From the NCBI RefSeq assembly GCF_910592395.1, contig NC_088325.1, positions 11,534,109-11,598,108 on the forward strand: a stretch of 64,000 nt of DNA, read 5' to 3'. The notes below the pieces were generated by a model. That model saw nothing but the letters and a program-made list of their open reading frames with translations, ran no database searches and was not told the origin of the DNA. The position numbers and the translations under genes are program-made. This document shows positions 1,943-62,782 of the stretch, in pieces. Source of the stretch: Lineus longissimus. Lineage: Eukaryota; Nemertea; Pilidiophora; Heteronemertea; Lineidae. How positions within the stretch are numbered: the first letter of the stretch is position 1; each line of letters starts with the position of its first letter.

Positions 1943-2860
1943 AGACTCCATCATTCATATCACTAGCGGAGCATTGTCGTCCAGTTTCTCTCACTTTGAA
2001 CCGCATTGAGGAAATCAAGGGGCTTCTCCAGCCCTGCGAATCGAGCATTAAGCCTTGATTTCCTCAGAATCAGGTTACATAAAAAACTTGAAATATGCCA
2101 TTGGAACACATTTGATCAGTTATATTTGGCTATACTAATTGGTCTTTCATCAAACATGCAGAAAAAAACTATCGGTTTTCCGTTGTCTCCTGCCTTATTG
2201 CTATTCATCACATCGTTGGTCGATTATATGAATGCAAATAATTTTCTTTCTGCTCATTAAGTTTGGTGACCTCGTTTAGCTTCTACATACTTTGGTCATT
2301 ACCAGTTAAACATTACATCAGTGATGCATGGTTCATGAGTCACGACCCAAATATTTTGGAAGAGAACCACTCGGCGAACAGTTATTTCTTTTCTTCACAT
2401 AATAGGTTTTCTTCTTCCTCGTTATGGACACATATAATTATGGGCGTATTCTGTACATTCAGAACATGTGATTTTCATGCAGGCCTGTGCACTATAAGTC
2501 ATGATGATTGCGATAATAAATCCCGGACTTGTGATTTAAAAAAAATATATATTTACGGATGTTCTAGTTACATGTAGTCCTCTTCAAAACATATGCGTAA
2601 TTAATCATCGTTAGTTGCTTTACATATAATCAATTGGAATCAAAGGTCTTGATAGGAGGCCAAAGTACCATTATAGCCGATTTGACTTTTTTTAAGTGGA
2701 GTTGTGAAATCTCTGCAGTTTTGTAAATAGCATGATTGTTTTGATTTTTTTCCCGTGCCCATTCTTAAGGAACGCTATCTGAAGTGTGATAATGTGAGGT
2801 CAACTGGGCCTGTCACTAAGGTCGTTTAAAAGTGCTTCTTTCTTTGTTCTTTGCAGATTC
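1943..2860. other. Upstream non-coding interval, unit 1
   Basis: About 0.9 kb shared with units 2-4 (about 20,742-21,650 in unit 2). It holds AT-rich sequence, short open frames without recognisable similarity, and a pyrimidine-rich tract ending in TTGCAG directly before the remnant ATG. It is probably a 5' UTR intron or promoter-proximal DNA. Confidence 0.4.
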
Positions 2861-2875
2861 ATGATCGACATGTAT
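2861..2875 (+). pseudogene. Stub of the signal-peptide exon and deletion junction, unit 1
   Basis: TTGCAG followed by ATTC and ATGATCGACATGTAT matches the start of the signal exon of units 2-4. It then continues directly as 'cataaaatcgcctagtgg', which in unit 2 lies about 1.3 kb downstream (23,033), beyond the repeat array. Both parental sequences share TAT at the joint. The rest of the signal exon and the whole 69-bp array are missing. Reading on from this ATG soon meets stop codons, so the usual start is lost. Confidence 0.85.
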
Positions 2876-3103
2876 CATAAAATCGCCTAGTGGTCAGTAC
2901 CAAAGCAGTGGAGTAGGACAAGCAACAGGAATTTCGAGTACAAGAAGGAAACATCAACTTGTCTCCCGTTAAGTTGAATTCTGAAACCTCAGATTTTGTC
3001 TTAGAGTTCTTCAAAGTGGGTATATGGATATTTATGTGTTATAGAGTATCGTACCACTCAATCTGTTTCTTGTGGATGTTGATTTGCTCAATTTTCTTTT
3101 CAG

Positions 3104-3430
3104 GTGCTCTTGGAATAACTGCAAATAATAGCCTCAGTAATTCACGTCCACGCCTCGGCGAAACGATAACGCTGGAGTGTAACATTGTTATTGGGACCGC
3201 CAAGAGTGTTACATGGTACAAGGACAGAAATGACACGCGAAAAACAGTTTATTTCACGCACAATTGTAGTGTTGTCGCAGTCAAGTATAAATCAAGATCA
3301 AAAAACGTTCAGTGTGATACGCAGAATTATAATTTTCAAATAAGTGAAGTTCAACATTCGGACAGCGGGGAATGGCAGTGTGAGGCAGATGGAGAAGTGG
3401 CCAAACCACCGCTGGAATTAAATGTTTTAG
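3104..3430 (+). CDS. Exon encoding Ig1 (V-like), unit 1
   Basis: The exon follows a good polypyrimidine tract (attttcttttcag) and ends at ttttag|gtaagt: 327 bp, phase 1 to 1. It encodes one Ig domain with the canonical first Cys (LECNIV), Trp (VTWYKD) and the DSGEWQC motif with the second Cys. An extra Cys pair lies between them (THNCSV and VQCDT), suggesting a second disulphide. The stretch after WYKD differs strongly from the other units while the surrounding introns are nearly identical. Upstream of the acceptor the frame stays open and reaches ATG at 3034. That extension has an Arg followed by a hydrophobic core (ICFLWMLICSIFFSGA), like a signal peptide. Confidence 0.88.
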
Positions 3431-19689: not shown

Positions 19690-19862
19690 GTGTAAAATCC
19701 TTGTGTTTGAGATTGTAATCCACCACGAGACCTACATACGGCGAAATTAGTCGGCAGGGATTGGTGATCCACTCTGCAAGGCGGCTTTGCGAGGTGATGA
19801 TCATTTTCCATCCAGAGGTGGGTTTCCGTGTGAGACATGTGTAGAATCCTTGGGTTTGAGAT
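19565..19862. repeat. 149-bp direct duplication, unit 2
   Basis: Two copies beginning at 'accacgagacctac', as in unit 1. Confidence 0.7.
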
Positions 19863-21654: not shown

Positions 21655-21730
21655 ATGATCGACATGTATAGCGACCGATTTCCCTTCCTCCTACTCGGCC
21701 TGGGACTCCTCCTGGCGCAAATTTTACATG
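21655..21730 (+). CDS. Signal-peptide exon, unit 2
   Basis: Starts at ATG four bases after an AG acceptor and ends TTACATG|gtaagt: 76 bp, ending in phase 1. It encodes a short polar N-terminus (MIDMYSDR) and a leucine-rich core (FPFLLLGLGLLLAQILHG), a standard signal peptide. The joined codon G|GT gives Gly before ALGIT of Ig1, a plausible cleavage region. Its 3' half is the seed of the 69-bp array that follows. Confidence 0.85.
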
Positions 21731-22826
21731 GTAAGTCATGCAGTCAACCCTCCTTCCTCCTACTCACCCTGGGACTTCTCCTGGTGGAACTCTTACAAAG
21801 TACGTCATGCAGTCAACCTTCCTTTCTCCTACTCAGCCTCGGACCCCTCCTGGTGGAACTCTTACAAAGTAAGTCATGAAGCCAACCTTCCTTCCTCCTA
21901 CTCAGCCTGGGACCCCCTCCTGGTGGAACTCTTACAAATCTAAGTCATGAAGTCAACATTCCTTCCTCCTACTCAGCCTTGGACCCCTCCTGGTGAAACT
22001 CTTATAAAGTAAGTCATGTAGTCAACCTTCCTTCCTCCTACTCAGCCTTGGACCCCTCCTGGTGGAACTCTTACAAAGTAAGTCATGAAGTCAACCTTCC
22101 TTCCTCCTACTCAGCCTGGGATCCCTCCTGGTGGAACTCTTACAAAGTAAGTCATGAAGTCGACCTTCCTTCCTCATACTCAGCCTAGGACCCCTCCTGG
22201 TGGAACTCTTACAAAGTAAGTCATGAAGTCAAACTTCCTTTCTCCTACGCAGCCTCGGACCCCTCCTGGTGGAACTCTTACAAAGTAAGTCATGCAGTCA
22301 ACCTTCCTTCCTCCTACTCAGCCTGGGACTCCTCCTTGTGGAACTCGTACAAAGTAAGTCATGCAGAAAACCTTCCTTCCTCCTACTCAGCCTGGGACCC
22401 CTCTTTGTGGAACTCTTACAAAGTAAGTCATGAAGTCAACCTTCCTTCCCCCTACTCAGCCTGGGATCCCTCCTGGTGGAACTCTTACATGGTGAGTAAT
22501 GCAGTGGAACTCTTCTAAAGTAAGTTATGAAGTCAACCTTCCTTCCTCATACTCAGCCTGTGACCCCTCCTGGTGGAACTCTTACATGGTGAGTCATGCA
22601 GTCAAACACCCTCCCTCCTACTCGGCCTTGGACTCCTGTTGGTGCAACTCTTGTACATCATGTGCGGCCGACTTGCTTTCCTCCTACCAAGCCTGGGACT
22701 CCTTCTTGTGAAACACTTACCTGGTAAGTCATGCACTCAAACACCCTTCCTCATACTCGGCATTGGACTCCTCCTTGGTGCAATACTTACCTGGTTAGTC
22801 ATGCAGTCTACCTCTCTTCCTTAAAG
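21731..22826 (+). repeat. 69-bp signal-exon/donor tandem array, unit 2 (about 16 copies)
   Basis: Each unit repeats the end of the signal exon and the first part of intron 1: gtaagtcatgcagtcaacc, cttccttcctcctactcag, then cctgggacccctcctggtgg and aactcttacaaa before the next gtaagt. The period is 69 bp (23 codons) with occasional 1-3 bp indels. The outer units are more diverged than the inner ones. The array lies wholly inside intron 1. Read in the signal-peptide frame it gives FLLLSLGPLLVELLQ repeats. Confidence 0.92.
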
Positions 22827-23259: not shown

Positions 23260-23586
23260 GTGCTCTTGGAATAACTCTAGAAAATAGCCTTAGTAATTCA
23301 AGTCCACGCCTCGGCGAAACGATAACGCTGAAGTGTAACATTGTTGATGGGACCGCCAGGAGTGTTGTATGGTACAAGGACAAATATTTCCCGCCAAAAG
23401 TACTTTTTTTGACGCACAATTGTATTGTTTTGGCAGACAAGTATAAATCAAGATTAAAACAATTTCAGTGTGATACGCATAATTATAATTTTCAATTAAG
23501 TGATGTTCAAATTTCGGACCACGGGGAATGGCTGTGTGAGGCAGATGGAGTAGCGGCCAAAACTGCGCTGCAATTAGATGTTTTAG
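23260..23586 (+). CDS. Exon encoding Ig1, unit 2
   Basis: 327 bp, phase 1 to 1. Same Ig1 framework (LKCNIV, VVWYKD, DHGEWLC) and the same extra Cys pair (THNC, FQCDT). The segment after WYKD (KYFPPKVLFL) is unlike unit 1 (RNDTRKTVYF) or units 3/4 (KTGNISQIIYL). The frame is again open upstream to ATG 23,190 with the hydrophobic ICFLWMLICSIFF stretch. Confidence 0.9.
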
Positions 23587-26521: not shown

Positions 26522-27052
26522 GTAAGCTCCTCTGACGGATTCCCAAAGCAGGTTTAAATTTCTACAATGCAGACACCTTTATCCAGCAAATTTCACTCTA
26601 AAGTAGCTAGAATTGCCATGACTAATATCAATCAGGTTGAGCTAAAAAATGTTGGCCAAACCCCGTCTTCGTCTTGGTTTTGGTCTATGTTTTAGCTCCG
26701 TTCCTGTTCATCTACGTATGTTTCCAGGATAATATGCTTAGATGTATCACATGCATCTGCTTGAATTGCCATGACATTTCTGCCAGATTTCATTGAATTT
26801 GGATGTGTTTTCCATGTTGAGGAGTGAAAATGACACCCCCTCCTCTAGATGCCAGATTCCTTAGAGGGGGATGGATTGCTCTGCAGCTGAAGTTTTAACC
26901 TTGAAGAATTCTTTCTGATTACATCCCCCGCTCTAGTCGATACTCTCCCAGTGTGGGGGGGGGGGGGGGGGGTCACAGTTTTAAAGAACAATATTTTGAT
27001 ATTCATTCGTTAATGAGGATGTTGTTAGTCACAACTTACTCTTATTTTACAG
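26522..27052 (+). other. Intron between Ig5 and stalk, unit 2
   Basis: Contains the short hairpin at about 26,639-26,699 and a G-run near 26,947-26,963. No coding sequence. Confidence 0.6.
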
Positions 27053-27100
27053 CGTCCAACACAAGTGACTTAAGCAATAGTGTATTAGTAAACACCACAG
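27053..27100 (+). CDS. Stalk mini-exon a, unit 2
   Basis: 48 bp, cttattttacag|cgtcc .. caccacag|gtgagt, phase 1 to 1. It encodes ASNTSDLSNSVLVNTT(G), rich in Ser, Thr and Asn with Asn-X-Thr sites, typical of a glycosylated stalk next to the membrane. Confidence 0.75.
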
Positions 27101-27310
27101 GTGAGTAGTTGTTTTGTGTCCGCTTGTTGACAGGCTTTCAATAAATTATATTGAAAGACTCTTGTGTAACTGAACTGTGCTATGTGTGAGATCAAATCAT
27201 TGATAGTATGGTTACATACTAAGACACAGGTCACAGTTTTAAAGAACAATATTTTGATATTCATTCGTTAATGAGGATTTTGTTAGTCACAACTTACTCT
27301 TATTTTACAG

Positions 27311-27358
27311 CGTCCAACACAAGTGACTTAAGCAATGGTGTATTAGCAAACACCAAAG
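27311..27358 (+). CDS. Stalk mini-exon b, unit 2
   Basis: Second 48-bp copy, 258 bp downstream of the first. The flanking intron is duplicated with it (from 'cacagttttaaagaac' on). It encodes ASNTSDLSNGVLANTK. Alternative inclusion would change stalk length by 16 residues. Confidence 0.72.
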
Positions 27359-28413
27359 GTGAGTAGTTGTTTTGTGTCCGCTTGTTGACAGGCTTTCAAT
27401 GAATTATATTGAAAGACTCTGGTGTAACTGAACTGCGCTATATGTGAGATCAAATCATTGATAGTATGGTTACATACTAGGACCAAGGATCTGTTGAAAG
27501 AATTTAACATGCCACATACTCTAAAACCTTTTATTGTTGCAAGCTAAATATTTTGAGAAACAAGCGTGTAATTTATACAGGCGGCTTGGCCAAATTTACT
27601 GTAATTTACAGAATGATGTGCGATATCTCGCTAAATCTTACGATTGTCAACTGGTGCTAGACCAATTGACAAGAAAATTGGGAATTGATAATTGAAATCA
27701 ACAAGAATAAATGTGCGCATTTTTGTGCAAACTTGTCTTAGGAATTATACAGGTCAGCCAGAGTGCGGTCAGGATTCTGAACAAGGCAGTAGTCAAATCG
27801 GCGGATGACCATGCAGGCAAAATATCGTTTTAGCACCAAGTCGAAATTCAGGACGTGTTGGGCCAGTGTGATTAACATTAGACCACCAGAACTCCTTGAA
27901 CTACTGCTTTTATAACTCAGGTGCCGGGCTTAGATGGCAGCACCGTCTATTACCTTTGGCCAGCTATTCATACGAAAAAAACACGCGATATCGGGATGTT
28001 AATACGATAAAACACACGAAAAACACATTTGCGTTGAAAATATTGATTGGAGACGTAATGGCTTCAATGGTAAAATCTACATGCACATACGAAAGATCGG
28101 TTAAGGCGGTGGTAGACATAAAGATACATTTACCAGTTCTAGTATTAATCTGTAGATGGAGAGAGTAAATCTGCCTGAGAGCTGTTCTGTGTAGGTTGGT
28201 TCAATACCTTGCACTGGCACGCTGGCACTGTCTGCCACTGGACCTAGGATGCATCCCAAAATGGTCTGCAGTCAACCGAAATTTATATGAAATCGGACTG
28301 CTGTCTGCCATCATCAAGGGCCGTGACAGACTCTATGCCTTGGCCTACTTACATAAGTTAGTGCATTTTATCGTTAGTTGTATTTATAAATCTTAAAATA
28401 ATTTATTTTACAG
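27359..28413 (+). other. Intron before TM B, unit 2
   Basis: 1.06 kb. A block at about 27,735-27,850 is conserved in all four units. At about 27,852 ('attcagga') units 2 and 3 leave the sequence shared with units 1 and 4, marking the switch from type A to type B 3' modules. No exon could be defined in the conserved block. Confidence 0.55.
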
Positions 28414-33315: not shown

Positions 33316-33625
33316 GCATCAACCAACGTTTGAATGACAGTTTAGAGACTGCGCCACCGACTCTGAATGGTCTGGCATCCATAATGAAGCAATGACAGGT
33401 TCTGTCATCATTTGGCACGAGATCAATTGCAAAGTCGCTGATATTTGATGATCCTATCAAATATTTCCTATTTTTGGAGTAGGGTGTACATACCATGATT
33501 TGTGTCCTACCACGAGACCTACACACGGCGAAATTAGTCGGCAGGGATTGGTGATCCACTCTGCAAGGCGGCTTTGCGACGTGATGATCATTTTCCATCC
33601 AGAGGTGAGTTTCCGTGTGAGTCAT
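33164..33625 (-). other. Antisense 153-codon frame, unit 3, coding doubtful
   Basis: Counterpart of 566-1027; same length, no recognised domain. Confidence 0.15.
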
Positions 33626-33800
33626 GTGTAAAATCCTTGTGTTTGAGATTGTAATCCACCACTAGACCTACATAGGGCGAAATTAGTCGGCAGGGATTGG
33701 TGATCCACTCTGCAAGGCGGCTTTGCGACGTGATGATCATTTTCCATCCAGGGGTGAGTTTCCGTGTGAGACATGTGTAAAATCCTTGGGTTTGATATTT
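33505..33800. repeat. 149-bp direct duplication, unit 3
   Basis: Two copies, as in the other units. Confidence 0.7.
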
Positions 33801-34360
33801 TAATCCCATAATCCGGAAATCCCGATGAACATTTGACATTTCTGAAATCCCAGAATTATTATTTCCAATTTTGGATTTTCGAGCGAAATGTGACCACACA
33901 ACGTATCGATATCTAAGGTCTCTGAATCAAGAGTCGGTAAGGGGTCTAGGCATAGAAGAGAGAGCAAAAATCCAAAGAGTTTCAAAGGAATTGCGGTGGT
34001 ACCCTTCCCACGAACTATTCGATCGCCAACTATAGAGTGGTGAGCGCCCCGGGGAGCGACCACGATAATGCATTTGTGTTAGTGGGTCGATTTCGCTTTG
34101 CATTGACATGTGGGGTAGAGTGATATCTTGGGCGATAGTGTCGGCATTCATACTTGGACTTGCAGTGAACGACCTTTCGCGATCCAAGAAAAATTTCCCA
34201 GCTTAAAATCATCGTCTGCATGAATAACTTGACCACACAGCAATTTTCCATACGCTACGGAAATAGTGCGCTTCAAACAATAAAAAATTACTTCGTTTTA
34301 GGAAGAAATATTTCGGACAGATAAGTGAACTGCAACTGAATGAGACAACCTTTTTTTGAA

Positions 34361-35511: not shown

Positions 35512-35587
35512 ATGATCGACATGTATAGCGACCGATTTCCCTTCCTCCTACTCAGCCTGGGACTCCTCCTGGCGCAAATTTTACATG
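35512..35587 (+). CDS. Signal-peptide exon, unit 3
   Basis: 76 bp, ATG to TTACATG|gtaagt, phase 1. It encodes MIDMYSDRFPFLLLSLGLLL followed by AQILHG. Reading past the donor, the frame stays open through several array units (to 36,045), so failure to splice would add hydrophobic repeats rather than stop at once. Confidence 0.85.
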
Positions 35588-38500
35588 GTAAGTCATGCAG
35601 TCAACCCTCCTTCCTCCTACTCACCCTGGTACTTCTCCTGGTGGAAGTCTTACAAAGTAAGTCATGCAGTCAACCTTCCTTCCTCCTACTCAGCCTGGGA
35701 CCCCTCCTGGTGGAACTCTTACAAAGTAAGTCATGCAGTCAATCTTCCTTCCTCCTACTCAGCCTGGTACCCCTCCTTGTTGAACTCTTACAAAGTAAGT
35801 CATGCAGACAACCTTCCTTCCTCCTACTTAGCCTGGGACCCCTCTCCTGGTGGAACTCTTACAAAGTAAGTCATGCAGACAACCTTCTTTCCTCCTACTC
35901 AGCCTGGGATCCCTCCTGGTGGAACTCTTATAAAGTAAGTCATGAAGTCAACCTTCCTTCCTCCTATTCAGCCTTGGACCCCTCCTGGTGGAACTCTTAC
36001 AAAGTAAGTCATGAAGTCAACCTTCCTTCCTCATACTCAGCCTAGGACCCCTCCTGGTGGAACTCTTACATGGTGAGCTATGCAGTCAGCTTCCCTTTCT
36101 CCTACTCAGCCTGGGACTTATCCTGGTGCAACTCTTACATGGTAAGTCATGCAGTCAACCTTCCTTTCTCCTACTCAGCCTCGGACCCCTCCTGGTGGAA
36201 CTCTTACAAAGTAAGTCATGCAGACAACCTTCCTTCCTCCTACTCAGCCTAGGACCCCTCCTGGTAGTACTCTTAGCAAGTAAGTCATGCAGACAACCTT
36301 CCTTCCTCCTACTCAGCCTAGGACCCCTCCTGGTGAAACTCTTAGAAAGTAAGTCATGCAGACAACCTTCCTTCCTCCTACTCAGCCTAAGACCCCCCTC
36401 CTGGTGGAATTCTTACAAAGTAAGTCATGAAGGAAACATTACTTCCTCCTACTCAGCCTGGGACCCCTCCTGGTGGAACTCTTACAAAGTAAGTCATGAA
36501 GTCAACCTTCCTTCCTCATACTCTGCCTGGGACCCCTCCTGGTAAAACTCTTACAAAGTAAGTCATGCAGTCAACCTTCCTTTCTCCTACTCAGCCTCGG
36601 ACCCCTCCTGGTGGAACTCTTACAAAGTAAGTCATGCAGACAACCTTCCTTCCTCCTACTCAGCCTAGGACCCCCTCCTGGTGGAACTCTTACAAAGTAA
36701 GTCATGCATACAACATTCCTTCCTCCTACTCGGCCTAGGACCCCCCTCCTGGTGGAACTCTTACAAAGTAAGTCATGAAGGCAACCTTGCTTCCTCCTAC
36801 TCAGCCTGGGACCCCTCCTGGTGGAACTCTTACAAAGTAAGTCATGCAGTCAACCTTCCTTCCTCCTACTCAGCCTGGGGCCCCTCCTTGTGGAACTCTT
36901 ACAAAGTAAGTCATGCAGACAACCTTCCTTCCTCCTACTCAGCCTGGGACCCCTCCTGGTGGAACTCTTACAAAGTAAGTCATGCAGTCAACCTTCCTTT
37001 CTCCTACTCAGCCTCGGACCCCTCCTGGTGGAACACTTACAAAGTAAGTCATGCAGACAACCTTCCTTCCTCCTACTCAGCCTAGGACCCCTCCTGGAAG
37101 TACTCTTAGCAAGTAAGTCATGCAGACAACCTTCCTTCCTCCTACTCAGCCTAGGACCCCTCTTGGTGAAACTCTTAGAAAGTAAGTCATGCAGACAACC
37201 TTCCTTCCTCCTACTCAGCCTAAGACCCCCCTCCTGGTGGAATTCTTACAAAGTAAGTCATGAAGGAAACATTACTTCCTCCTACTCAGCCTGGGACCCC
37301 TCCTGTTGGAACTCTTACAAAGTAAGTCATGAAGTCAACCTTCCTTCCTCATACTCTGCCTGGGACCCCTCCTGGTAAAACTCTTACAAAGTAAGTCATG
37401 CAGTCAACCTTCCTTTCTCCTACTCAGCCTCGGACCCCTCCTGGTGGAACTCTTACAAAGTAAGTCATGCAGACAACCTTCCTTCCTCCTACTCAGCCTA
37501 GGACCCCTCCTGGTGGAACTCTTACAAAGTAAGTCATGCAGACAACATCACTTCCTCCTACTCGGCCTAGGACCCCCCTCCTGGTGGAACTCTTACAAGG
37601 TAAGTCATGAAGGCAACCTTGCTTCCTCCTACTCAGCCTGGGACCCCTCCTGGTGGAACTCTTACAAAGTAAGTCATGCAGTCAACCTTCCTTCCTCCTA
37701 CTCAGCCTGGGGCCCCTCCTTGTGGAACTCTTACAAAGTAAGTCATGCAGACAACCTTCCTTCCTCCTACTCAGCCTGGGACCCCTCCTGGTGGAACTCT
37801 TACAAAGTAAGTCATGCAGTCAACCTTCCTTTCTCCTACTCAGCCTCGGACCCCTCCTGGTGGAACTCTTACAAAGTAAGTCATGCAGACAACCTTCCTT
37901 CCTCCTACTCAGGCTAGGACCCCCCTCCTGGTGGAACTCTTACAAAGTAAGTCATGCAGACAACCTTCCTTCCTCCTACTCAGCCTGGGGCCCCTCCTCG
38001 TGGAACTCTTACAAAGTAAGTCATGCAGACAACCTTCCTTCCTCCTACTCAGCCTGGGACCCCTCCTGGTGGAACTCTTACAAAGTAAGTCATGCAGTCA
38101 ACCTTCCTTTCTCCTACTCAGCCTCGGACCCCTCCTGTTGGAAATCTTACAAAGTAAGTCATGCAGACAACCTTCCTTCCTCCTACTCAGCCTAGGACCC
38201 CCCCTCCTGCTGGAACTCTTAATGGTAAGTCATGCAGACAACTTTCCTTCCTCCTACTCAGCCTAGGACCCCCCTCCTAGTGGAACTCTTACAAAGTAAG
38301 TCATGCAGACAACCTTCCTTCCTCCTACTCAGCCTGGGACCCCTCCTTGTGGAACTCTTACAAAGTAAGTCATGCAGTCAACCTTCCTTCCTCCTACTCA
38401 GCCTGGGACCCCTCCTGGTGGAACTCTTACAAAGTAAGTCATGCAGTCAATCTTCCTTCCTCCTACTCAGCCTGGTACCCCTCCTTGTGGAACTCTTACA

Positions 38501-41500
38501 AAGTAAGTCATGCAGACAACCTTCCTTCCTCCTACTTAGCCTGGGACCCCTCTCCTGGTGGAACTCTTACAAAGTAAGTCATGCAGACAACCTTCTTTCC
38601 TCCTACTCAGCCTGGGATCCCTCCTGGTGGAACTCTTATAAAGTAAGTCATGAAGTCAACCTTCCTTCCTCCTATTCAGCCTTGGACCCCTCCTGGTGGA
38701 ACTCTTACAAAGTAAGTCATGAAGTCAACCTTCCTTCCTCATACTCAGCCTAGGACCCCTCCTGGTGGAACTCTTACATGGTGAGCTATGCAGTCAGCTT
38801 CCCTTTCTCCTACTCAGCCTGGGACTTATCCTGGTGCAACTCTTACATGGTAAGTCATGCAGTCAACCTTCCTTTCTCCTACTCAGCCTCGGACCCCTCC
38901 TGGTGGAACTCTTACAAAGTAAGTCATGCAGACAACCTTCCTTCCTCCTACTCAGCCTAGGACCCCTCCTGGTAGTACTCTTAGCAAGTAAGTCATGCAG
39001 ACAACCTTCCTTCCTCCTACTCAGCCTAGGACCCCTCCTGGTGAAACTCTTAGAAAGTAAGTCATGCAGACAACCTTCCTTCCTCCTACTCAGCCTAAGA
39101 CCCCCCTCCTGGTGGAATTCTTACAAAGTAAGTCATGAAGGAAACATTACTTCCTCCTACTCAGCCTGGGACCCCTCCTGGTGGAACTCTTACAAAGTAA
39201 GTCATGAAGTCAACCTTCCTTCCTCATACTCTGCCTGGGACCCCTCCTGGTAAAACTCTTACAAAGTAAGTCATGCAGTCAACCTTCCTTTCTCCTACTC
39301 AGCCTCGGACCCCTCCTGGTGGAACTCTTACAAAGTAAGTCATGCAGACAACCTTCCTTCCTCCTACTCAGCCTAGGACCCCCTCCTGGTGGAACTCTTA
39401 CAAAGTAAGTCATGCATACAACATTCCTTCCTCCTACTCGGCCTAGGACCCCCCTCCTGGTGGAACTCTTACAAAGTAAGTCATGAAGGCAACCTTGCTT
39501 CCTCCTACTCAGCCTGGGACCCCTCCTGGTGGAACTCTTACAAAGTAAGTCATGCAGTCAACCTTCCTTCCTCCTACTCAGCCTGGGGCCCCTCCTTGTG
39601 GAACTCTTACAAAGTAAGTCATGCAGACAACCTTCCTTCCTCCTACTCAGCCTGGGACCCCTCCTGGTGGAACTCTTACAAAGTAAGTCATGCAGTCAAC
39701 CTTCCTTTCTCCTACTCAGCCTCGGACCCCTCCTGGTGGAACACTTACAAAGTAAGTCATGCAGACAACCTTCCTTCCTCCTACTCAGCCTAGGACCCCT
39801 CCTGGAAGTACTCTTAGCAAGTAAGTCATGCAGACAACCTTCCTTCCTCCTACTCAGCCTAGGACCCCTCTTGGTGAAACTCTTAGAAAGTAAGTCATGC
39901 AGACAACCTTCCTTCCTCCTACTCAGCCTAAGACCCCCCTCCTGGTGGAATTCTTACAAAGTAAGTCATGAAGGAAACATTACTTCCTCCTACTCAGCCT
40001 GGGACCCCTCCTGTTGGAACTCTTACAAAGTAAGTCATGAAGTCAACCTTCCTTCCTCATACTCTGCCTGGGACCCCTCCTGGTAAAACTCTTACAAAGT
40101 AAGTCATGCAGTCAACCTTCCTTTCTCCTACTCAGCCTCGGACCCCTCCTGGTGGAACTCTTACAAAGTAAGTCATGCAGACAACCTTCCTTCCTCCTAC
40201 TCAGCCTAGGACCCCTCCTGGTGGAACTCTTACAAAGTAAGTCATGCAGACAACATCACTTCCTCCTACTCGGCCTAGGACCCCCCTCCTGGTGGAACTC
40301 TTACAAGGTAAGTCATGAAGGCAACCTTGCTTCCTCCTACTCAGCCTGGGACCCCTCCTGGTGGAACTCTTACAAAGTAAGTCATGCAGTCAACCTTCCT
40401 TCCTCCTACTCAGCCTGGGGCCCCTCCTTGTGGAACTCTTACAAAGTAAGTCATGCAGACAACCTTCCTTCCTCCTACTCAGCCTGGGACCCCTCCTGGT
40501 GGAACTCTTACAAAGTAAGTCATGCAGTCAACCTTCCTTTCTCCTACTCAGCCTCGGACCCCTCCTGGTGGAACTCTTACAAAGTAAGTCATGCAGACAA
40601 CCTTCCTTCCTCCTACTCAGGCTAGGACCCCCCTCCTGGTGGAACTCTTACAAAGTAAGTCATGCAGACAACCTTCCTTCCTCCTACTCAGCCTGGGGCC
40701 CCTCCTCGTGGAACTCTTACAAAGTAAGTCATGCAGACAACCTTCCTTCCTCCTACTCAGCCTGGGACCCCTCCTGGTGGAACTCTTACAAAGTAAGTCA
40801 TGCAGTCAACCTTCCTTTCTCCTACTCAGCCTCGGACCCCTCCTGTTGGAAATCTTACAAAGTAAGTCATGCAGACAACCTTCCTTCCTCCTACTCAGCC
40901 TAGGACCCCCCCTCCTGCTGGAACTCTTAATGGTAAGTCATGCAGACAACTTTCCTTCCTCCTACTCAGCCTAGGACCCCCCTCCTAGTGGAACTCTTAC
41001 AAAGTAAGTCATGCAGACAACCTTCCTTCCTCCTACTCAGCCTGGGACCCCTCCTTGTGGAACTCTTACAAAGTAAGTCATGCAGTCAACCTTCCTTCCT
41101 CCTACTCAGCCTGGGACCCCTCCTGGTGGAACTCTTACAAAGTAAGTCATGCAGTCAATCTTCCTTCCTCCTACTCAGCCTGGTACCCCTCCTTGTGGAA
41201 CTCTTACAAAGTAAGTCATGCAGACAACCTTCCTTCCTCCTACTTAGCCTGGGACCCCTCCTTGTGGAACTCTTACAAAGTAAGTCATGCAGACAACCTT
41301 CCTTCCCCCTACTCAGCCTGGGATCCCTCCTGGTGGAACTCTTATAAAGTAAGTCATGAAGTCAACCTTCCTTCCTCCTACTCAGCCTAGGACCCCTCCT
41401 GGTAGTACTCTTAGCAAGTAAGTCATGCAGACAACCTTCCTTCCTCCTACTCAGCCTAGGACCCCTCCTGGTAGTACTCTTAGCAAGTAAGTCATGCAGA

Positions 41501-43178
41501 CAACCTTCCTTCCTCCTACTCAGCCTAGGACCCCTCCTGGTGAAACTCTTAGAAAGTAAGTCATGTAGACAACCTTCCTTCCTCCTACTCAGCCTAAGAC
41601 CCCCTCCTGGTGGAATTCTTACAAAGTAAGTCATGAAGGAAACATTACTTACTCCTATTCAGCCTGGGACCCCTCCTGGTGGAACTCTTACAAAGTAAGT
41701 CATGAAGTCAACCTTCCTTCCTCATACTCTGCCTGGGACCCCTCCTGGTAAAACTCTTACAAAGTAAGTCATGCAGTCAACCTTCCTTTCTCCTACTCAG
41801 CCTCGGACCCCTCCTGGTGGAACTCTTACAAAGTAAGTCATGCAGACAACCTTCCTTCCTCCTACTCAGCCTAGGACCCCCTCCTGGTGGAACTCTTACA
41901 AAGTAAGTCATGCAGACAACCTTCCTTCCTCCTACTCAGCCTAGGACCCCCCTCCTGGTGGAACACTTACAAAGTAAGTCATGAAGGCAACCTTGCTTCC
42001 TCCTACTCAGTCTGGGACCCCTCCTGGTGGAACTCTTACAAAGTAAGTCATGCAGTCAACCTTCCTTCCTCCTACTCAGCCTGGGGCCCCTCCTTGTGGA
42101 ACTCTTACAAAGTAAGTCATGCAGACAACCTTCCTTCCTCCTACTCAGCCTGGGACCCCTCCTGGTGGAACTCTTACAAAGTAAGTCATGCAGTCAACCT
42201 TCCTTTCTCCTACTCAGCCTCGGCCCCCTCCTGGTGGAACTCTTACAAAGTAAGTCATACAGACAACCTTCCTTCCTCCTACTCAGCCTAGGACCCCCCT
42301 CCTGGTGGAACTCTTACAAAGTAAGTCATGCAGACAACCTTCCTTCCTCCTACTCAGCCTAGGACCCCCTCCTGGTGGAACTCTTACAAAGTAAGTCATG
42401 AAGGCAACCTTGCTCTCTCCTACTCAGCCTGGGACCCCTCCTGGTGGAACTCTTACAAAGTAAGTCATGCAGTCAACCTTCCTTCCTCCTACTCAGCCTG
42501 GGACCCCTCCTTGTGGAACTCTTACAAAGTAAGTCATGCAGACAACCTTCCTTCCTCCTACTTAGCCTGGGACCCCTCCTTGTGGAACTCTTACAAAGTA
42601 AGTCATGCAGACAACCTTCCTTCCTCCTACTCAGCCTGGGATCCCTCCTGGTGGAACTCTTATAAAGTAAGTCATGAAGTCAACCTTCCTTCCTCCTACT
42701 CAGCCTGGGACCCCTCCTGGTGGAACTCTTACAAAGTAAGTCATGAAGTCAACCTTCCTTCCTCATACTCAGCCTAGGACCCCTCCTGGTGGAACTCTTA
42801 CATGCTGAGCTATGCAGTCAGCCTCCCTTTCTCCTACTCAGCCTGGGACTTCTCCTGGTGCAACTCTTACATGGTAAGTCATGCAGTCAACCTTCCTTCC
42901 CCCTACTCAGCCTGTGACCCCTCCTGGTGGAAATCTTACATGGTGAGTCATGCAGTCAAACACCCTTCCTCCTACTCGGCCTTGGACTCCTGTTGGTGCA
43001 ACTCTTATACATCATGTGCGGCCGACTTGCTTTCCTCCTACCAAGCCTGGGACTCCTTCTTGTGAAACACTTACCTGGTAAGTCATGCAGTCAAACACCC
43101 TTCCTCATACTCGGCCTTGGACTCCTCCTTGATGCAATACTTACCTGGTTAGTCGTGCAGTCTATCTCTCTTCCTTAA
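35588..43178 (+). repeat. 69-bp signal-exon/donor tandem array, unit 3 (about 110 copies)
   Basis: 7.6 kb of the same 69-bp unit. Nearly all copies keep gtaagt and a pyrimidine tract ending in ctactcag. Variants (cctaggacccccctcc; gtagtactcttagcaa; gaaggaaacattac) recur in fixed order, giving higher-order blocks of about 833 bp (12 units) and 2,708 bp. Some units carry extra C residues that shift the frame between the LLLSLGPLL and the SYSAWDPSWWNSYK readings, both free of stops. The right-hand end (42,800-43,178) is diverged and matches the ends in units 2 and 4. Confidence 0.93.
35790..41253 (+). repeat. 2,708-bp higher-order duplication inside the array
   Basis: Positions from about 35,790 to 38,545 reappear 2,708 bp further on (38,498 to 41,253) with no difference in the stretches compared. 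Just left of the block (ccttgttgaac at about 35,780 against ccttgtggaac at about 38,488) and just right of it (cctctcctggtgg against cctccttgtgg at about 41,255) the copies differ. Either a very recent duplication or an assembly duplication. Confidence 0.85.
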
Positions 43179-43578
43179 AGCCTTGAGAATTAGCCCGCTA
43201 CGTAAATTTGGATACCCAAATCAAATTCAAGGGGAATCTGCAGCTTCCCTGAAGGAAACAGCCAGCATTGTAAACATCGCATCTACAGTACATGTATATG
43301 AAGTATAGCAACTTAGAGTTCGCCTGTATTAATAAGAAACACACTTCTATCATAAAATCGCCTAGTGGTCAGTACCAAAGCAGTGGAGTAGGACAAGCAA
43401 CAGGAATTTCGAGTACAAGAAGGAAACATCAACTTGTCTCCCATTAAGTTGAATTCTGAAACCTCGGATTTTGTCTTAGAGTTCTTCAAAGTGGGCATAT
43501 GGATATTTATGTGTTGTAGAGTATCGTACCACTCAATCTGTTTCTTGTGGATGTTGATTTGCTCAATTTTCTTTTCAG

Positions 43579-43908
43579 GTGCTCTTGGAATAACTTTAAA
43601 AAATAGCCTTAGTAATTCACGTCCACGCCTCGGCGACACGATAACGCTTGAGTGTAACATTGTTATTGGGACCGCCAAGAGTGTTTCATGGTACAAGGAC
43701 AAAACTGGAAACATCAGTCAAATAATCTATTTGACGCACAATTGTAGTGTTTTCGCAGACAAGTATAAATCAAGATTAAAGAACGTTCAGTGTGATACAA
43801 ATAATCATGATTTTCAATTAAGTGATGTTCAAATTTCGGACCGCGGAAAGTGGCTGTGTGAGGCAGATGGAGAAGAGGCCAAATCACCGCTGAAATTAGA
43901 TGTTTTAG
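43579..43908 (+). CDS. Exon encoding Ig1, unit 3
   Basis: 330 bp, phase 1 to 1. LECNIV, VSWYKD and DRGKWLC mark the Ig core, with the extra pair THNC and VQCDT. The variable stretch KTGNISQIIYL is the same as in unit 4. Open upstream to ATG 43,509. Confidence 0.9.
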
Positions 43909-45032: not shown

Positions 45033-45080
45033 CACCTTACACAAGTGACTTAAGCAATAGTGTGCCTATAAACACCACAT
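45033..45080 (+). CDS. Stalk mini-exon a, unit 3
   Basis: 48 bp, ttttacag|cacc .. ccacat|gtgagt, phase 1 to 1; APYTSDLSNSVPINTT-like, Ser/Thr/Asn-rich. Confidence 0.7.
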
Positions 45081-45173: not shown

Positions 45174-45221
45174 CATCCTACACAAGTGACTTAAGCAATA
45201 GTGTATCAGTAAACACCAAAG
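45174..45221 (+). CDS. Stalk mini-exon b, unit 3
   Basis: 48 bp, ttttacag|catcc .. caccaaag|gtgagt, phase 1 to 1; ASYTSDLSNSVSVNTK-like. 141 bp after copy a. Confidence 0.7.
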
Positions 45222-45359: not shown

Positions 45360-45407
45360 CACCCAACACAAATGACTTAAGCAATAGTGTGCCTATAAAC
45401 ACCACAA
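45360..45407 (+). CDS. Stalk mini-exon c, unit 3
   Basis: 48 bp, ttttacag|caccc .. caccacaa|gtgagt, phase 1 to 1; APNTNDLSNSVPINTT-like. 186 bp after copy b. Confidence 0.7.
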
Positions 45408-50552: not shown

Positions 50553-51013
50553 CACAAAAAGAATTTCTCGCAGAGCAGAATTAAGACCAATGAAACCATA
50601 GGAACCCTACGTCGTTCGTAATTACTGTTGGTCCATGAAAAAGAAATAGACCTCCATCCGCGCTGTACGTCATGATATGCAATGCATTGTCCTTCAATAC
50701 ATAGCATCAACCAAAGTTTGAATAACAGTTTAGAGACTGCGCCACCAACTCTGAATGGTCTGGCATCCATAATGAAGCAATGACAGGTTCTGTCATCATT
50801 TGGCACGAGATCAATTGAAGAGTCGCTGATATTTGATGATCCTATCAAATATTTCCTATTTTTGGAGTAGGTTGTACATACCATGATTTGTGTCCTACCA
50901 CCCGACATACCCACGGCGAAATTAGTCGGCAGGGATTGGTGATCCACTCTGCAAGGCGGCTTTGCGACGTGATGATCATTTTCCATCCAGAGGTGAGTTT
51001 CCGTGTGAGTCAT
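50552..51013 (-). other. Antisense 153-codon frame, unit 4, coding doubtful
   Basis: Counterpart of 566-1027; uninterrupted but with many amino-acid changes. Confidence 0.15.
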
Positions 51014-51190
51014 GTGTAAAATCCTTGTGTTTGAGATTGTAATCCACCACGAGACCTACATACGGCGAAATTAGTCGGCAGGGATTGGTGATCCACTCTG
51101 CAAGGCGGCTTTGCAAGGTAATGATCATTTTCCATCCAGAGGTGGGTTTCCGTGTGAGACATGTGTAAAATCCTTGGGTATGAAAATTTA
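50895..51190. repeat. 149-bp direct duplication, unit 4
   Basis: Two copies as in the other units. Confidence 0.7.
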
Positions 51191-54380: not shown

Positions 54381-54845
54381 ATGGCTCCCGTGCAGTCAAG
54401 ACTGCTTGTGGCCGTTGCTGCGTCAGCTGTCGTTGCTGCTATGGCAATAGCCATGGCCGCATTGAAGAAGAAACGACGACGACGACGCCGATATTGGACA
54501 CGGCCATGGATCCTTCGAAGAGCATCCAAAGGGGCATATGCCATGCTAAACGAGGAGCTCAGGCTGGAAGACCCCGCTTCTTACAAAAACTATCTGCGTA
54601 TGGATGAAGAGATATTTGCTGATCTCGTTGATAGAGTCACTCCATACGTTTATAGGTCAGACACCAATATGCGCCAGGCAATCACTCCTGCCGAACGTTT
54701 AGCGGTGACGTTGCGTTTCTTGGCAACTGGAGAAACATTCCAAAGTCTAGAGTTCTCAACAAGGATTAGCGCCTGCACGATAGGTAGAATTGTTCCAGAG
54801 ATGTGCGATGCCCTCTACACGGTTTTGAAAGGCGATTTCATAAAG
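54381..54845 (+). CDS. Harbinger transposase exon 1
   Basis: 155 codons from ATG to ataaag|gtaata, phase 0. It begins with a small hydrophobic stretch and a strongly basic cluster (LKKKRRRRRRYW), a likely nuclear signal. The middle (RMDEEIFADLVDRVTPYV) and the helix-turn-helix-like segment (LRFLATGETFQSLEFSTRIS) match the N-terminal organisation of Harbinger transposases. Its intron contains exon 2 of the antisense MADF gene. Confidence 0.85.
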
Positions 54846-54949
54846 GTAATACGAACACTATGAAAATGACACTGCAATGTTTTCCTTTTAACCATTTTTT
54901 ATTTCTTGCTGTAGCTGACTTTACAATAACAAAATACTTAAATGCACAA

Positions 54950-55555
54950 TCATTCAGTACTGTAAAATGTTTGCATCATGGCATTACCAAGAATATCAGC
55001 GGTGTTCCCCATGCTACATGCATTTGAAGTTGTTACATTTGGAAAATCTTTACGACTAGGCTGACCGTTATACGTCATGATGGAACACTGCTGGTTGTAA
55101 CCATGTTTTCCAGGAGGAACTGTTGCATTATTAATGTGCTGCGGAGGGACTCTTCTAGTCAACTGAGTATTTCTGCCCAACTCAGACTCTTGCGCATCAA
55201 GAAGCGCCATGTTTATTTTCCTTTTTGCACTTTGCCTTATGTCAGCATGCTGCAGGCTGCGCTTTTCGCAAGCCACAAATTTACCAATAATATCAAATTG
55301 GTCCTCGTTCTGCGTTGGTGTACTAGTGCTTTCATTCATGTTTGAGCTGACAACAGCATCTTTCAATTCAGTCAAAGCATCAGCTGCTGTGTGCAACATC
55401 GACTCCTCTACAGAACGACTCTTTTTCGCCCTTGGTTTAGGTCTACTCGGTTCCTGGGATGTGCACGGTTTTGCTGAGTGTCCTACCGATGGCGTTCCAG
55501 GACGTGGTGATTCATCATGCAACTCTTGGTCGGAGTCGTCATGAGCAGAGGAGTC
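54950..55555 (-). CDS. Harbinger-encoded MADF protein, exon 2
   Basis: Minus-strand acceptor ccactttcag|gactcc at 55,556, phase 0, stop at 54,950. It encodes about 201 residues: an acidic and Pro/Ser-rich linker with a basic cluster (RPKPRAKKSR), then a BESS-like segment (FDIIGKFVACEKRSLQHADI) as often found C-terminal to MADF domains, and a Gln/Asn-rich end. Exactly the phase and order expected for the partner of 56,317-56,721. Confidence 0.8.
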   Translation of the reverse strand, partial: DSSAHDDSDQELHDESPRPGTPSVGHSAKPCTSQEPSRPKPRAKKSRSVEESMLHTAADALTELKDAVVSSNMNESTSTPTQNEDQFDIIGKFVACEKRSLQHADIRQSAKRKINMALLDAQESELGRNTQLTRRVPPQHINNATVPPGKHGYNQQCSIMTYNGQPSRKDFPNVTTSNACSMGNTADILGNAMMQTFYSTE

Positions 55556-55596
55556 CTGAAAGTGGAGGTTAACATTGCAACTTTTCCTTTTTTCAG

Positions 55597-56184: not shown

Positions 56185-56316
56185 TATTGGTCGAGTATCG
56201 TGGCAAGGTAAATTTGCAGCGTAGAATGAGGCAGCCATTCTTGTATAACTGTGTGTACAGTCAGTGAATAATTCTGTTGTAGTCAGAGAAATAAAATGAT
56301 GTTAAGAATTAATTAC

Positions 56317-57866: not shown

Positions 57867-57942
57867 ATGATCGACATGTATAGCGACCGATTTCCCTTCC
57901 TCCTACTAAGCCTGGGACTCCTCCTGGCGAAAATTTTACATG
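57867..57942 (+). CDS. Signal-peptide exon, unit 4
   Basis: 76 bp, ATG to TTACATG|gtaagt, phase 1. Same peptide as unit 3 except AKILHG for AQILHG. The upstream acceptor is kept, so the 4-kb transposon lies in presumed 5' UTR intron or promoter DNA. Confidence 0.85.
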
Positions 57943-60250
57943 GTAAGTCATGCAGTCAACCTTCCTTCCTCCTACTCAGCCTGGGACCCCTCCTGGTGGA
58001 ACTCTTACAAAGTAAGTCATGCAGTCAATCTTCCTTCCTCCTACTCAGCCTGGTACCCCTCCTTGTTGAACTCTTACAAAGTAAGTCATGCAGACAACCT
58101 TCCTTCCTCCTACTTAGCCTGGGACCCCTCCTTGTGGAACTCTTACAAAGTAAGTCATGCAGACAACCTTCCTTCCTCCTACTCAGCCTGGGATCCCTCC
58201 TGGTGGAACTCTTATAAAGTAAGTCATGAAGTCAACCTTCCTTCCTCCTACTCAGCCTGGGACCCCTCCTGGTGGAACTCTTACATGGTGAGCTATGCAG
58301 TCAGCCTCCCTTTCTCCTACTCAGCCTGGGACTTCTCCTGGTGCAACTCTTACATGGTAAGTCATGCAGTCAACCTTCCTTTCTCCTACTCAGCCTCGGA
58401 CCCCTCCTGGTGGAACTCTTAAAAAGTAAGTCATGCAGACAACCTTCCTTCCTCCTACTCAGCCTAGGACCCCTCCTGGTAGTACTCTTACAAAGTAAGT
58501 CATGCAGACAACCTTCCTTCCTCCTACTCAGCCTAGGACCCCCCTCCTGGTGAAACTCTTAGAAAGTAAGTCATGCAGACAACCTTCCTTCCTCATACTC
58601 TGCCTGGGACCCCTCCTGGTAAAACTCTTACAAAGTAAGTCATGCAGTCAACCTTCCTTTCTCCTACTCAGCCTCGGACCCCTCCTGGTGGAACTCTTAC
58701 AAAGTAAGTCATGCAGACAACCTTCCTTCCTCCTACTCAGCCTAGGACCCCCCTCCTGGTGGAACTCTTACAAAGTAAGTCATGAAGGCAACCTTGCTTC
58801 CTCCTACTCAGCCTGGGACCCCTCCTGGTGGAACTCTTACAAAGTAAGTCATGCAGTCAACCTTCCTTCCTCCTACTCAGCCTGGGGCCCCTCCTTGTGG
58901 AACTCTTACAAAGTAAGTCATGCAGACAACCTTCCTTCCTCCTACTCAGCCTGGGACCCCTCCTGGTGGAACTCTTACAAAGTAAGTCATGCAGTCAATC
59001 TTCCTTTCTCCTACTCAGCCTCGGACCCCTCCTGGTGGAACTCTTACAAAGTAAGTCATGCAGACGACCTTCCTTCCTCCTACTCAGCCTAGGACCCCCT
59101 CCTGGTGGAACTCTTACAAAGTAAGTCATGCAGACAACCTTCCTTCCTCCTACTCAGCCTAGGACCCCCCTCCTGGTGGAACTCTTACAAAGTAAGTCAT
59201 GAAGGCAAACTTGCTTCCTCCTACTCAGCCTGGGACCCCTCCTGGTGGAACTCTTACAAAGTAAGTCATGCAGTCAACCTTCCTTCCTCCTACTCAGCCT
59301 GGGACCCCTCCTTGTGGAACTCTTACAAAGTAAGTCATGCAGACAACCTTCCTTCCTCCTACTCAGCCTGGTACCCCTCCTGGTGGAACTCTTACAAAGT
59401 AAGTCATGCAGTCAATCTTCCTTCTCTTACTCAGCCTGGTACCCCTCCTGGTGGAACTCTTACAAAGTAAGTCATGCAGACAACCTTCCTTCCTCCTACT
59501 CAGCCTGGGACCCCTCCTTGTGGAACTCTTACAAAGTAAGTCATGCAGTCAATCTTCCTTCCTCCTACTCAGCCTGGGACCCCTCCTGGTGGAACTCTTA
59601 CGAAGTAAGTCATGCAGTCAATCTTCCTTCCTCCTACTCAGCCTGGTACCCCTCCTTGTGGAACTCTTACAAAGTAAGTCATGCAGACAACCTTCCTTCC
59701 TCCTACTTAGCCTGGGACCCCTCCTTGTGGAACTCTTACAAAGTACGTCATGCAGACAACCTTCCTTCCTCCTACTCAGTCTGGGATCCCTCCTGGTGGA
59801 ACTCTTACAAAGTAAGTCATGAAGTCAACCTTCCTTCCTCATACTCAGCCTAGGACCCTCCTGGTGGAACTCTTACATGGTGAGCTATGCAGTCAGCCTC
59901 CCTTTCTCCTACTCAGCCTGGGACTTCTCCTGGTGCAACTCTTACATGGTAAGTAATGCAGTCAACCTTCCTTCCCCCTACTCAGCCTATGACCCCTCCT
60001 GGTGGAAATCTTACATGGTGAGTCATGCAGTCAAACACCCTTCCTCCTACTCGGCCTTGGACTCCTGTTGGTGCAACTCTTATACATCATGTGCGGCCGA
60101 CATGCTTTCCTCCTACCAAGCCTGGGACTCCTTCTTGTGAAACACCTACCTGGTAAGTCATGCAGTCAAACACCCTTCCTCATACTCGGCCTTGGACTCC
60201 TCCTTGATGCAATACTTACCTGGTTAGTAGTGCAGTCTATCTCCTTCCTT
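57943..60250 (+). repeat. 69-bp signal-exon/donor tandem array, unit 4 (about 34 copies)
   Basis: Same unit, splice-like motifs and variant types as unit 3, including blocks that appear in the same order in both arrays (for example gaaggcaaccttgc followed by the cctggggcccctcc unit). The diverged last units (60,030-60,250) match those of units 2 and 3. Confidence 0.92.
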
Positions 60251-60653: not shown

Positions 60654-60983
60654 GTGCTCTTGGAATAAAAGTAAAAAATAGCCTTAATAATTCAAGTCCA
60701 CGCCTCGGCGACACGATAACGTTTGAGTGTAACATTGTTATTGGGACCGCCAAGAGTGTTTCATGGTACAAGGACAAAACTGGAAACATCAGTCAAATAA
60801 TTTATTTGACGCACAATTGTAGTGTTTTCGCAGACAAGTATAAATCGAGATTAAAGAACGTTCAGTGTGATACGAATAATCATGATTTTCAATTAAGTGA
60901 TGTTCAAATTTCGGACCGCGGAAAGTGGCTGTGTGAGGCAGATGGAGAAGAGGCCAAATCACCGCTGAAATTAGATGTTTTAG
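60654..60983 (+). CDS. Exon encoding Ig1, unit 4
   Basis: 330 bp, phase 1 to 1. Nearly the same as unit 3 except the first residues (GIKVKNSLNNSS) and FECNIV. Core Cys and Trp and the extra Cys pair are present. Open upstream to ATG 60,584. Confidence 0.9.
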
Positions 60984-62734: not shown

Positions 62735-62782
62735 CATCCGACACAAGTGACTTAAGCAATAGTGTGCCTATAAACACCACAG
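62735..62782 (+). CDS. Stalk mini-exon a, unit 4
   Basis: 48 bp, ttttacag|catcc .. caccacag|gtgagt, phase 1 to 1; ASDTSDLSNSVPINTT. Confidence 0.72.

Follow-up and report, generated by a model that had tools for sequence, protein, structure and literature searches.

The question raised by this locus is why the first intron of a receptor gene should hold 110 units of a 69-bp repeat, most of them with an intact GTAAGT, and whether splicing takes any notice of them. The window, i.e., the whole 64,000-nucleotide stretch of Lineus longissimus DNA that was analysed, contains three array-bearing genes of a tandem family of immune-type receptors (U2, U3 and U4) and an array-less left-hand gene (Table 1).

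The array and its first unit

The array is confirmed as a real feature, and its unit 1 is the coding signal exon itself. By TRF, the 69-bp unit is present in 109.4 copies in U3 (35540-43129), in 33.4 in U4 (57895-60204) and, as two rows, in 11.7 and 4.2 in U2 (21683-22808), while wrap-around alignment, counting the exon row and the last partial row, gives 110, 34 and 16 rows, respectively, the same numbers as had been estimated in a preliminary description of this DNA. That description was also right that gtaagt is kept in most copies. Among the 110 rows of U3, GT is present in 108, GTAAGT in 104, AG in 98 and both GT and AG in 97; the corresponding counts are 33, 28, 31 and 31 for the 34 rows of U4, and 14, 11, 12 and 11 for the 16 rows of U2. 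With 143 occurrences in the arrays (12.9 per kb) against 0.34 per kb elsewhere in the window, the GTAAGT density excludes chance.

Table 1. Coordinates of the signal exons, arrays and Ig1 exons in the window
Feature	Position	Strand	Remarks
Left-hand gene, truncated signal exon	2849..2876	+	exon 1 ends after ATGATCGACATGTAT
Left-hand gene (array-less), Ig1 exon	3104..3430	+	
U2 signal exon	21655..21730	+	
U2 69-bp array	21683..22806	+	16 units
U2 Ig1 exon	23260..23586	+	
U3 signal-peptide exon, coding part	35512..35587	+	76 nt, MIDMYSDRFPFLLLSLGLLLAQILHG; last 48 nt are array unit 1
U3 69-bp array	35540..43152	+	110 units, with the exon unit and a partial final unit counted
U3 authentic 5' splice site, ATG/GTAAGT	35588..35593	+	U1 duplex -9.1 kcal/mol
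U3 higher-order duplication within the array	35648..41260	+	39 units (2,708 bp)
U3 divergent 3'-terminal unit, 'exon 1b'	43012..43080	+	ATG and signal-like frame
U3 Ig1 exon	43579..43908	+	
U4 signal exon	57867..57942	+	NCBI LOC135502230
U4 69-bp array	57895..60228	+	34 units
U4 Ig1 exon	60654..60983	+	join matches NCBI model

In the arrays of the C19 cluster, the genomic neighborhood described below, unit 1 is the coding exon together with its donor (the exon portion in U3 being 35540-35587), and the array continues from it in register. That the array stems from the signal exon and donor site of the receptor itself, as proposed, is thus borne out. An unrelated satellite inserted in the intron, which had been named as the competing source of the seed, is ruled out, as unit 1 is the exon and the units of a related gene on contig C17 align to the start of their own C17 exon (0 of 1000 shuffles). 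The share of former exon in the unit had been put at about 32 bases; it is at least 48 nt, and perhaps ~62 nt because the supposedly intronic part aligns to the exon start in the C17 relatives and in unit 1b of U3 (0 of 1000 shuffles for the latter). The homology to the exon start is not significant for the window consensus (61 of 1000 shuffles) or for a gene with two copies (249 of 1000). The 69-bp unit is for the most part exon-derived. The pyrimidine tract and ctactcag, earlier taken for a former 3' splice site, are actually exon code for Phe-Leu-Leu-Leu-Ser, and the apparent real acceptor of the U3 signal exon is ctttgcag/ATTCATG at 35500.

The U3 array contains a duplicated block of 39 units with one mismatch over 2,904 compared positions. 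The left-hand gene has lost its array and its donor in a deletion that begins midway through exon 1 and reaches the 3' part of intron 1, into which exon 1 now runs on after ATGATCGACATGTAT. Reading the array as coding sequence was rejected: open frames of 120-202 aa are listed, yet C insertions of +1 or +2 shift the frame. A search of the window for structured RNA gave no Rfam match at gathering scores, and the signal plus Ig1 piece alone was found in 0 of 38 candidate homologues in a search confined to proteins comparable in length. A further Ig1-like site, at window position -108636, is a chance match.

Spread and divergence within the receptor family

Over a 294-kb stretch, the C19 cluster, an array stands behind 13 of 14 signal exons, with ~4 to 110 units. 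A gene near the cluster (L045) has two copies; divergent versions occur in three relatives, located on contigs C17 and C12, with 6-7 units in those on C17. The 69-bp period (3 x 23) is retained in genes on three contigs, which speaks against a mere passenger. The array consensus differs between C17 and C19. All matches listed from a whole-genome array search (part of 269) lie within the C19 cluster; the divergent C17 and C12 arrays were detected only via an Ig1 protein search. One genome thus offers a natural dose series, in which closely similar exons are followed by 2, ~4 to 16, 34 and 110 units, and with which the spliceosome's choice of a 5' splice site among near-identical sites becomes directly testable. 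The left-hand gene, with zero units, is not a clean zero point in this series because its own donor is lost too.

Among the 263 non-exon rows of 13 arrays, GT is present in 248, GTAAGT in 219 and AG in 222, counts that are good to within a few, since they include the exon row of G1 and some misaligned or flanking edge rows of G5, G10, G11 and G14, and leave out the partial rows at the end of U3 and U4. Divergent 3' units are retained in many arrays, the interiors of which are homogenised. The 3' block of the array diverges more than the adjoining intron (mean 6.5% versus 2.6% over 55 pairs, and higher in 51 of them), in a comparison without G1, whose array is shorter than the compared block; with G1 included, the values are 8.8% and 3.3% over 66 pairs. 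Two of the 14 signal-exon loci are deletion derivatives with one deletion end in or beside the array, viz., the left-hand window gene and G5, where the array passes directly into sequence that lies immediately upstream of the tail exon.

Known arrays of exon-intron boundaries

Mirage minisatellites were reportedly first described by Canestro et al. in 2002, and the repeats in intron 7 of human F7 are said to have been studied by Borensztajn et al. in 2006. The F7 repeat has a handful of copies, far fewer than the worm array. The preliminary description knew of no system of this form; arrays of this type are, however, already known from the amphioxus mirages (PMC3087553) and from F7 intron 7 (PMC6627357). 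What is new here is a large, family-wide instance in another phylum, the Nemertea.

According to PMC3087553, the mirages of amphioxus Adh3, BflGb6 and BflGb9 are minisatellite-like tandem copies of an exon-intron boundary, which appear not to disturb regular splicing, and somatic instability is reported for that of Adh3. They resemble the worm arrays in several ways: the tandem copies adjoin the real boundary, splice signals are retained in many units, the number of copies is variable, and a homogenised interior is accompanied by divergent edge units. The unit lengths overlap (10-72 bp in the Adh3 mirage, 69 bp in the worm), whereas copy numbers reach 110 units in the worm as against 6 and 3 in the BflGb6 haplotypes. 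The worm genes have the boundary-spanning repeats, the splice signals in many but not all units and, between paralogues, a copy-number range of 2 to 110 that mark mirages. They differ in belonging to a nemertean instead of a cephalochordate, in always copying the 3' end of a signal exon and in forming a tandem receptor family. This suggests that minisatellites of the mirage type occur beyond the cephalochordates and can persist in a gene family while it spreads over several chromosomes.

In the F7 repeats, splicing normally proceeds from the most upstream donor alone, and mutation of this true donor leads to exon skipping or to the use of downstream cryptic donors (PMC6627357). The worm genes likewise have the true donor in the first repeat; it is predicted gene models that place the splice junction there. 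The resemblance is drawn here without sequence comparison, and the F7 unit is 37 bp as against 69 bp, in another gene and another phylum. Intron gain through tandem duplicates of segments with AG/GT (PMC4974935, PMC3443670; a model in PMC3087553) also involves tandem copies with splice signals; in the worm, by contrast, no new intron is seen and the copies sit in an existing one.

Donors, reading frames and competing explanations

The array is probably an exon-junction ('mirage'-type) minisatellite, a largely neutral passenger removed with intron 1, and it is most likely ignored by splicing; of the roles considered in the preliminary description, 'only a selfish minisatellite' turns out to be the best reading. 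We hypothesize that the arrays began in an ancestor of the receptor subfamily, when part of the signal exon together with its 5' splice site underwent tandem duplication, and that slippage and unequal exchange later expanded the copies and made them uniform gene by gene, to 2-110 units. Exon 1 would still be spliced to Ig1, because unit 1 continues to be the real exon and no other donor lies upstream of its own, and the whole array would leave with intron 1. The donor would thus be chosen by position and not by strength, though within the C19 cluster the true donor mostly ranks as the strongest as well. The array itself would be largely neutral, and a site where deletions break. Among NCBI gene models, which are predictions, those of U4 (34 units) and G11 join exon 1 exactly to Ig1, and so does the predicted C17 model P0122, whose Ig1 matches at 100% at C17:1801456. 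None of 11 NCBI proteins contains array residues beyond the signal peptide itself, and none of these models has exon 1 of U3 (110 units).

Could the copied donors nevertheless vie with the true donor for U1, or hold the transcript in products with a shifted frame, such that a longer array lowers receptor output gene by gene? The numbers of intact GT and GTAAGT given above are in keeping with such a decoy, and so are the aberrant products, nearly all of which carry a premature stop, as a decoy would require. The donor hexamer shows 15 inferred changes against 24.3 expected on a base-matched basis, with only 3 of 69 circular windows as low, the counts being approximate as they derive from a minimum spanning tree of 143 unit types (234 units, those below 80% identity excluded). 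However, a composition-matched permutation gives 0.14. Counted by types per column, the donor does not stand out, as 19 of 69 windows are equally or more conserved. Compared with the true donor by U1 pairing, the 262 units of the C19 cluster comprise 233 with a weaker donor, 18 with an equal one and 11 with a stronger one, in a table that includes a few edge rows and in which the exon donor of G5 is set at -9.1. Outside the cluster the pattern is different: all six downstream donors of C17b (L033) are intact GTAAGT, three stronger and three slightly weaker than the exon donor; of five in C17a, one is stronger and one equal; and the single copied donor of the 2-copy gene is slightly stronger. 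Since many copied donors in C17, C12 and the 2-copy gene are as strong as the true donor or above it, no general claim of weaker donors can be made. Against the decoy also stand the broken donors common to several paralogues (a 1-bp insertion that destroys GT recurs at unit 3-6 in G2, G4, U2, G10, G11 and G14), the damaged donors in 3 of 6 rows of C17a and the normal splicing described for the amphioxus and F7 parallels. The decoy suggested earlier therefore keeps a weak hint from the donor changes and loses ground on donor strength and shared damage, and we consider it unlikely. Still less probable is a rheostat, in which up to 110 tandem donors just after the true one would send part of the transcripts, in a proportion particular to each gene, into products with a premature stop; if it did operate, the expression level of each receptor would be heritable, fast-mutating and set by array length, and weak selection on the donor hexamer would keep the arrays. 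Given the weak hint that donors are conserved, a functional role keeps a small probability.

A source of signal-peptide variants had also been envisaged. It could work through mini-exons, downstream donors in 23-residue steps or an ATG-bearing unit 1b, and the unit does equal 3 x 23 nucleotides. This fared poorly and is very improbable. Inclusion of a single mini-exon introduces a stop in 198 of 199 cases, and use of a downstream donor does so in 212 of 235, leaving 23 open, for GT-bearing units of genes other than G5 (broken exon, Ig1 lacking). In U2, U3 and U4 an open in-frame product results from just the first 2-3 downstream donors, and four of 12 genes tested (G4, G10, G11 and G14) have no open option; the proteins noted above likewise lack array residues outside the signal peptide. 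The frame of unit 1b resembles a signal peptide in U2, U3, U4 and G12, but as a second signal exon it is rejected, its ATG lying in another frame in six paralogues. A U1 platform that shields a long intron from early polyadenylation (telescripting) could draw on ~13 GTAAGT per kb over 7.6 kb of the 7,991-bp U3 intron 1, yet the intron is long solely through the array, and in other array genes intron 1 measures 0.6-2.7 kb. Neither AATAAA nor ATTAAA occurs in intron 1 of U2, U3 or U4; among 12 paralogues, nine have neither and three have one, in a count of these two hexamers that omits the G5-G6 stretch, which is not an intron. We therefore regard such guarding as scarcely credible. A repeat common to tandem genes might instead promote unequal exchange and family diversification by shuffling promoter and signal exon against Ig bodies, as the two deletion derivatives and the divergence of Ig1 between paralogues (7.3%, against 2.6% for the adjacent intron) would suggest. 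But two events are few, the unit order of U3 and U4 is no more alike than shuffled (LCS 9; shuffled mean 8.0, maximum 11), with 12 unit types common to both and none common with U2, and nothing indicates a fitness effect, such that this role is rather doubtful.

One further observation weighs against the passenger reading. In L046, an array-less relative, a CAAA/GTAAGT donor is apparently used, which fits P0127; therefore the AAA/GTAAGT donors of the arrays need not be dead.

Receptor genes and the distribution of the array

The window (G000:C19:11534109-11598108) lies inside a 391-Mb genome, and two NCBI Lineus longissimus proteins are identical to genes located here across exon 1, the signal-peptide exon, and Ig1, the first Ig-domain exon. 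The gene products comprise a signal peptide followed by an Ig domain (Pfam Ig_3, 5.7e-08; I-set, 1e-07), and the predicted NCBI gene models add further segments of Ig, stalk, membrane and tail type; tyrosine motifs occur in the tails of several NCBI proteins of the family. Genome searches with two Ig1 queries returned 84 and 86 matches. Almost all of these lie on one chromosome, C19, in several clusters (0.6-9.5 Mb and 11.4-11.7 Mb), and they constitute a large receptor family.

A 294-kb stretch contains 14 signal exons, of which 12 retain an intact 76-nt coding part, and 13 of the 14 are accompanied by an array of about 4 to 110 units. The only array-less signal exon is that of the left-hand gene of the window, where the array, together with the final part of exon 1 and its donor, has been deleted. 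The paralogue G5 is the reverse case: its exon 1, shortened by a 4-nt deletion, and its array are kept, and the array leads directly into sequence immediately 5' of the tail exon. Among the named genes in which arrays were looked for (a subset of the 84 and 86 Ig1 matches), a gene at C19:11.39 Mb has the exon plus one diverged copy, two C17 genes have 6 and 7 units with consensus sequences unlike those of C19, and one C12 gene has a degenerate array. No tandem repeat was found in the intron 1 sequence fetched for L046, a relative from a more distant branch with a different signal exon (C19:4.39 Mb). The stretch read for the C12 gene (C12:5207093-5210416) shows no recognisable ATG exon before the array and its first donor-like site lacks GT, and this may be a decayed gene.

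The copy numbers given in the preliminary description, about 110 in U3 and about 16 and 34 in its paralogues, agree with our counts (see table). Of the 110 rows of U3, 108 keep GT, 104 GTAAGT and 98 AG, with GT and AG both present in 97, and GTAAGT occurs at 12.9 per kb in the arrays versus 0.34 per kb outside. The U3 array includes a 39-unit, 2,708-bp duplication with 1 mismatch over 2,904 compared positions, which reflects either a very recent event or an assembly doubling.

Repeated features of the receptor genes, with positions counted within the window
Feature	Positions	Description
U2 array	21683-22806	16 units, exon unit and last partial row counted
U3 array	35540-43152	110 units of 69 bp, exon unit and last partial row counted
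U4 array	57895-60228	34 units, exon unit and last partial row counted
149-bp direct repeat (about two copies), then 24-bp repeat	911-1197, 19573-19870, 33509-33806, 50913-51183	upstream of the signal exon, one region per gene unit, in all four
48-nt stalk exon (TSDLSNSV...), in tandem	45033-45080, 45174-45221, 45360-45407	each with own acceptor and donor
48-nt stalk exon repeats	~26971-27483, ~62650-63207

Origin of the repeat unit

The derivation of the array from the receptor's own signal exon is borne out, as the first U3 unit is itself coding exon, with 35540-35587 in exon 1 and the donor at 35588. The pyrimidine tract plus ctactcag, noted earlier as kept in most copies, is the exon's code for Phe-Leu-Leu-Leu-Ser and is therefore a cryptic acceptor at best; exon 1 has its apparent true acceptor at 35500. 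For one C17 relative, the unit bases 3' of GTAAGT align with the gene's own exon start (CATG...GGCCGA); none of 1000 shuffles was as good, and roughly 7 of the aligned bases belong to the known core. An equal result (0/1000) was obtained when a unit of the second C17 gene, C17b, was aligned with that gene's own exon start, and when the divergent 3' unit '1b' was aligned with the start of the U3 exon. No clear trace of this homology is seen in the window consensus (61/1000 shuffles as good) or in the second copy of the two-copy gene (249/1000). Thus, the alignments in the C17 genes and unit 1b suggest that the seed probably comprised almost all of the coding signal exon, from the second ATG through the donor.

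Splicing and the possible roles of the array

The most plausible reading of the array is a passenger minisatellite, skipped by splicing since the true donor precedes all the copies and, in the cluster of the window, usually exceeds them in strength. The NCBI predicted models of U4 (LOC135502230) and G11 join exon 1 exactly to Ig1, and the same join is seen by sequence in the predicted model of a C17 gene (LOC135501170 isoform X2), where one downstream donor is stronger than the gene's own. Array residues outside the signal peptide are absent from 11 related NCBI proteins, all predictions and none with the U3 exon 1. In the C19 cluster, U1 pairing of exon-1 donors amounts to -9.1 kcal/mol, or -9.9 in three genes, versus -5.6 for the common array donor; 233 of 262 copied donors are weaker than their own exon donor, 18 equal and 11 stronger. 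Outside this cluster the rule of weaker copied donors breaks down. C17b has an exon donor of -9.3 and six copies, all GTAAGT, at -10.6 (three) and -9.1 (three); C17a has -9.1 and copies at -10.6, -9.1, -5.3, -2.6 and -2.6; and the single copied donor of the two-copy gene is at -9.3 versus -9.1. The passenger reading must therefore rest on position and not on strength. In the C12 gene, three other donor-like sites are intact, and L046 apparently uses a CAAA|GTAAGT donor.

The proposal that the array supplies signal-peptide variants is not supported by the reading frames: in 198 of 199 combinations (12 genes), joining exon 1 to a single AG-GT segment of a unit and then to Ig1 introduced a premature stop. 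Use of a unit donor with retention up to it left 23 of 235 products open; all of these use donors in units 1 to 6, and G4, G10, G11 and G14 have none. A U1 platform guarding the intron against early polyadenylation would likewise have little to protect, since the two common poly(A) hexamers are absent from intron 1 of U2, U3 and U4, and 3 of 12 paralogues contain one each. Judged by the number of unit types in each column, the donor hexamer does not stand out in the arrays of U2, U3 and U4 (19 of 69 windows reach a value as low). Inferred changes within it number 15 versus 24.3 expected (143 types, 13 arrays; a count this low in 3 of 69 windows; permutation matched for composition, 0.14), a hint of conservation and not a result. 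The 3' block of the array diverges by 6.5% versus 2.6% for the adjoining intron and is the higher in 51 of 55 pairs. A regulatory role for the array is a weakly supported possibility. Of the earlier alternatives, it is the selfish minisatellite that these data favour, and the structure belongs to an already described kind, contrary to the view that no such system was known. The titles and abstracts searched, with nemerteans not a search term and subscription papers mostly outside, gave no such array in nemerteans or in a receptor family. What makes the array a good natural system is its size, the dose series it provides and its distribution across a receptor family.

Other features around the genes

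The 48-nt stalk repeats are frame-neutral exons, unlike the signal array, and three stalk peptide units are present in the NCBI model of U4. In 11 of 13 Ig1 genes the last part of intron 1 (~43500-43578 in U3, and the same place in paralogues) carries a frame that runs open into Ig1 and includes an ATG plus a hydrophobic stretch (about MCYRVSYHSICFLWMLICSIFFSG). Such a retained-intron start could provide a signal peptide for the gene with the truncated exon 1, or the stretch may simply be the pyrimidine-rich acceptor. Paralogues differ by 7.3% in Ig1 (43579-43908 in U3 and equivalents) versus 2.6% in the intron immediately before, a contrast suggesting that Ig1 is under diversifying selection or that the 5' region undergoes conversion. 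Between U3 and U4, 54381-56721 holds a HARBI1/DDE_Tnp_4-type transposase fragment and, on the opposite strand, a MADF protein; the nearest named relative of the transposase fragment is also from Lineus longissimus and is 74% identical.
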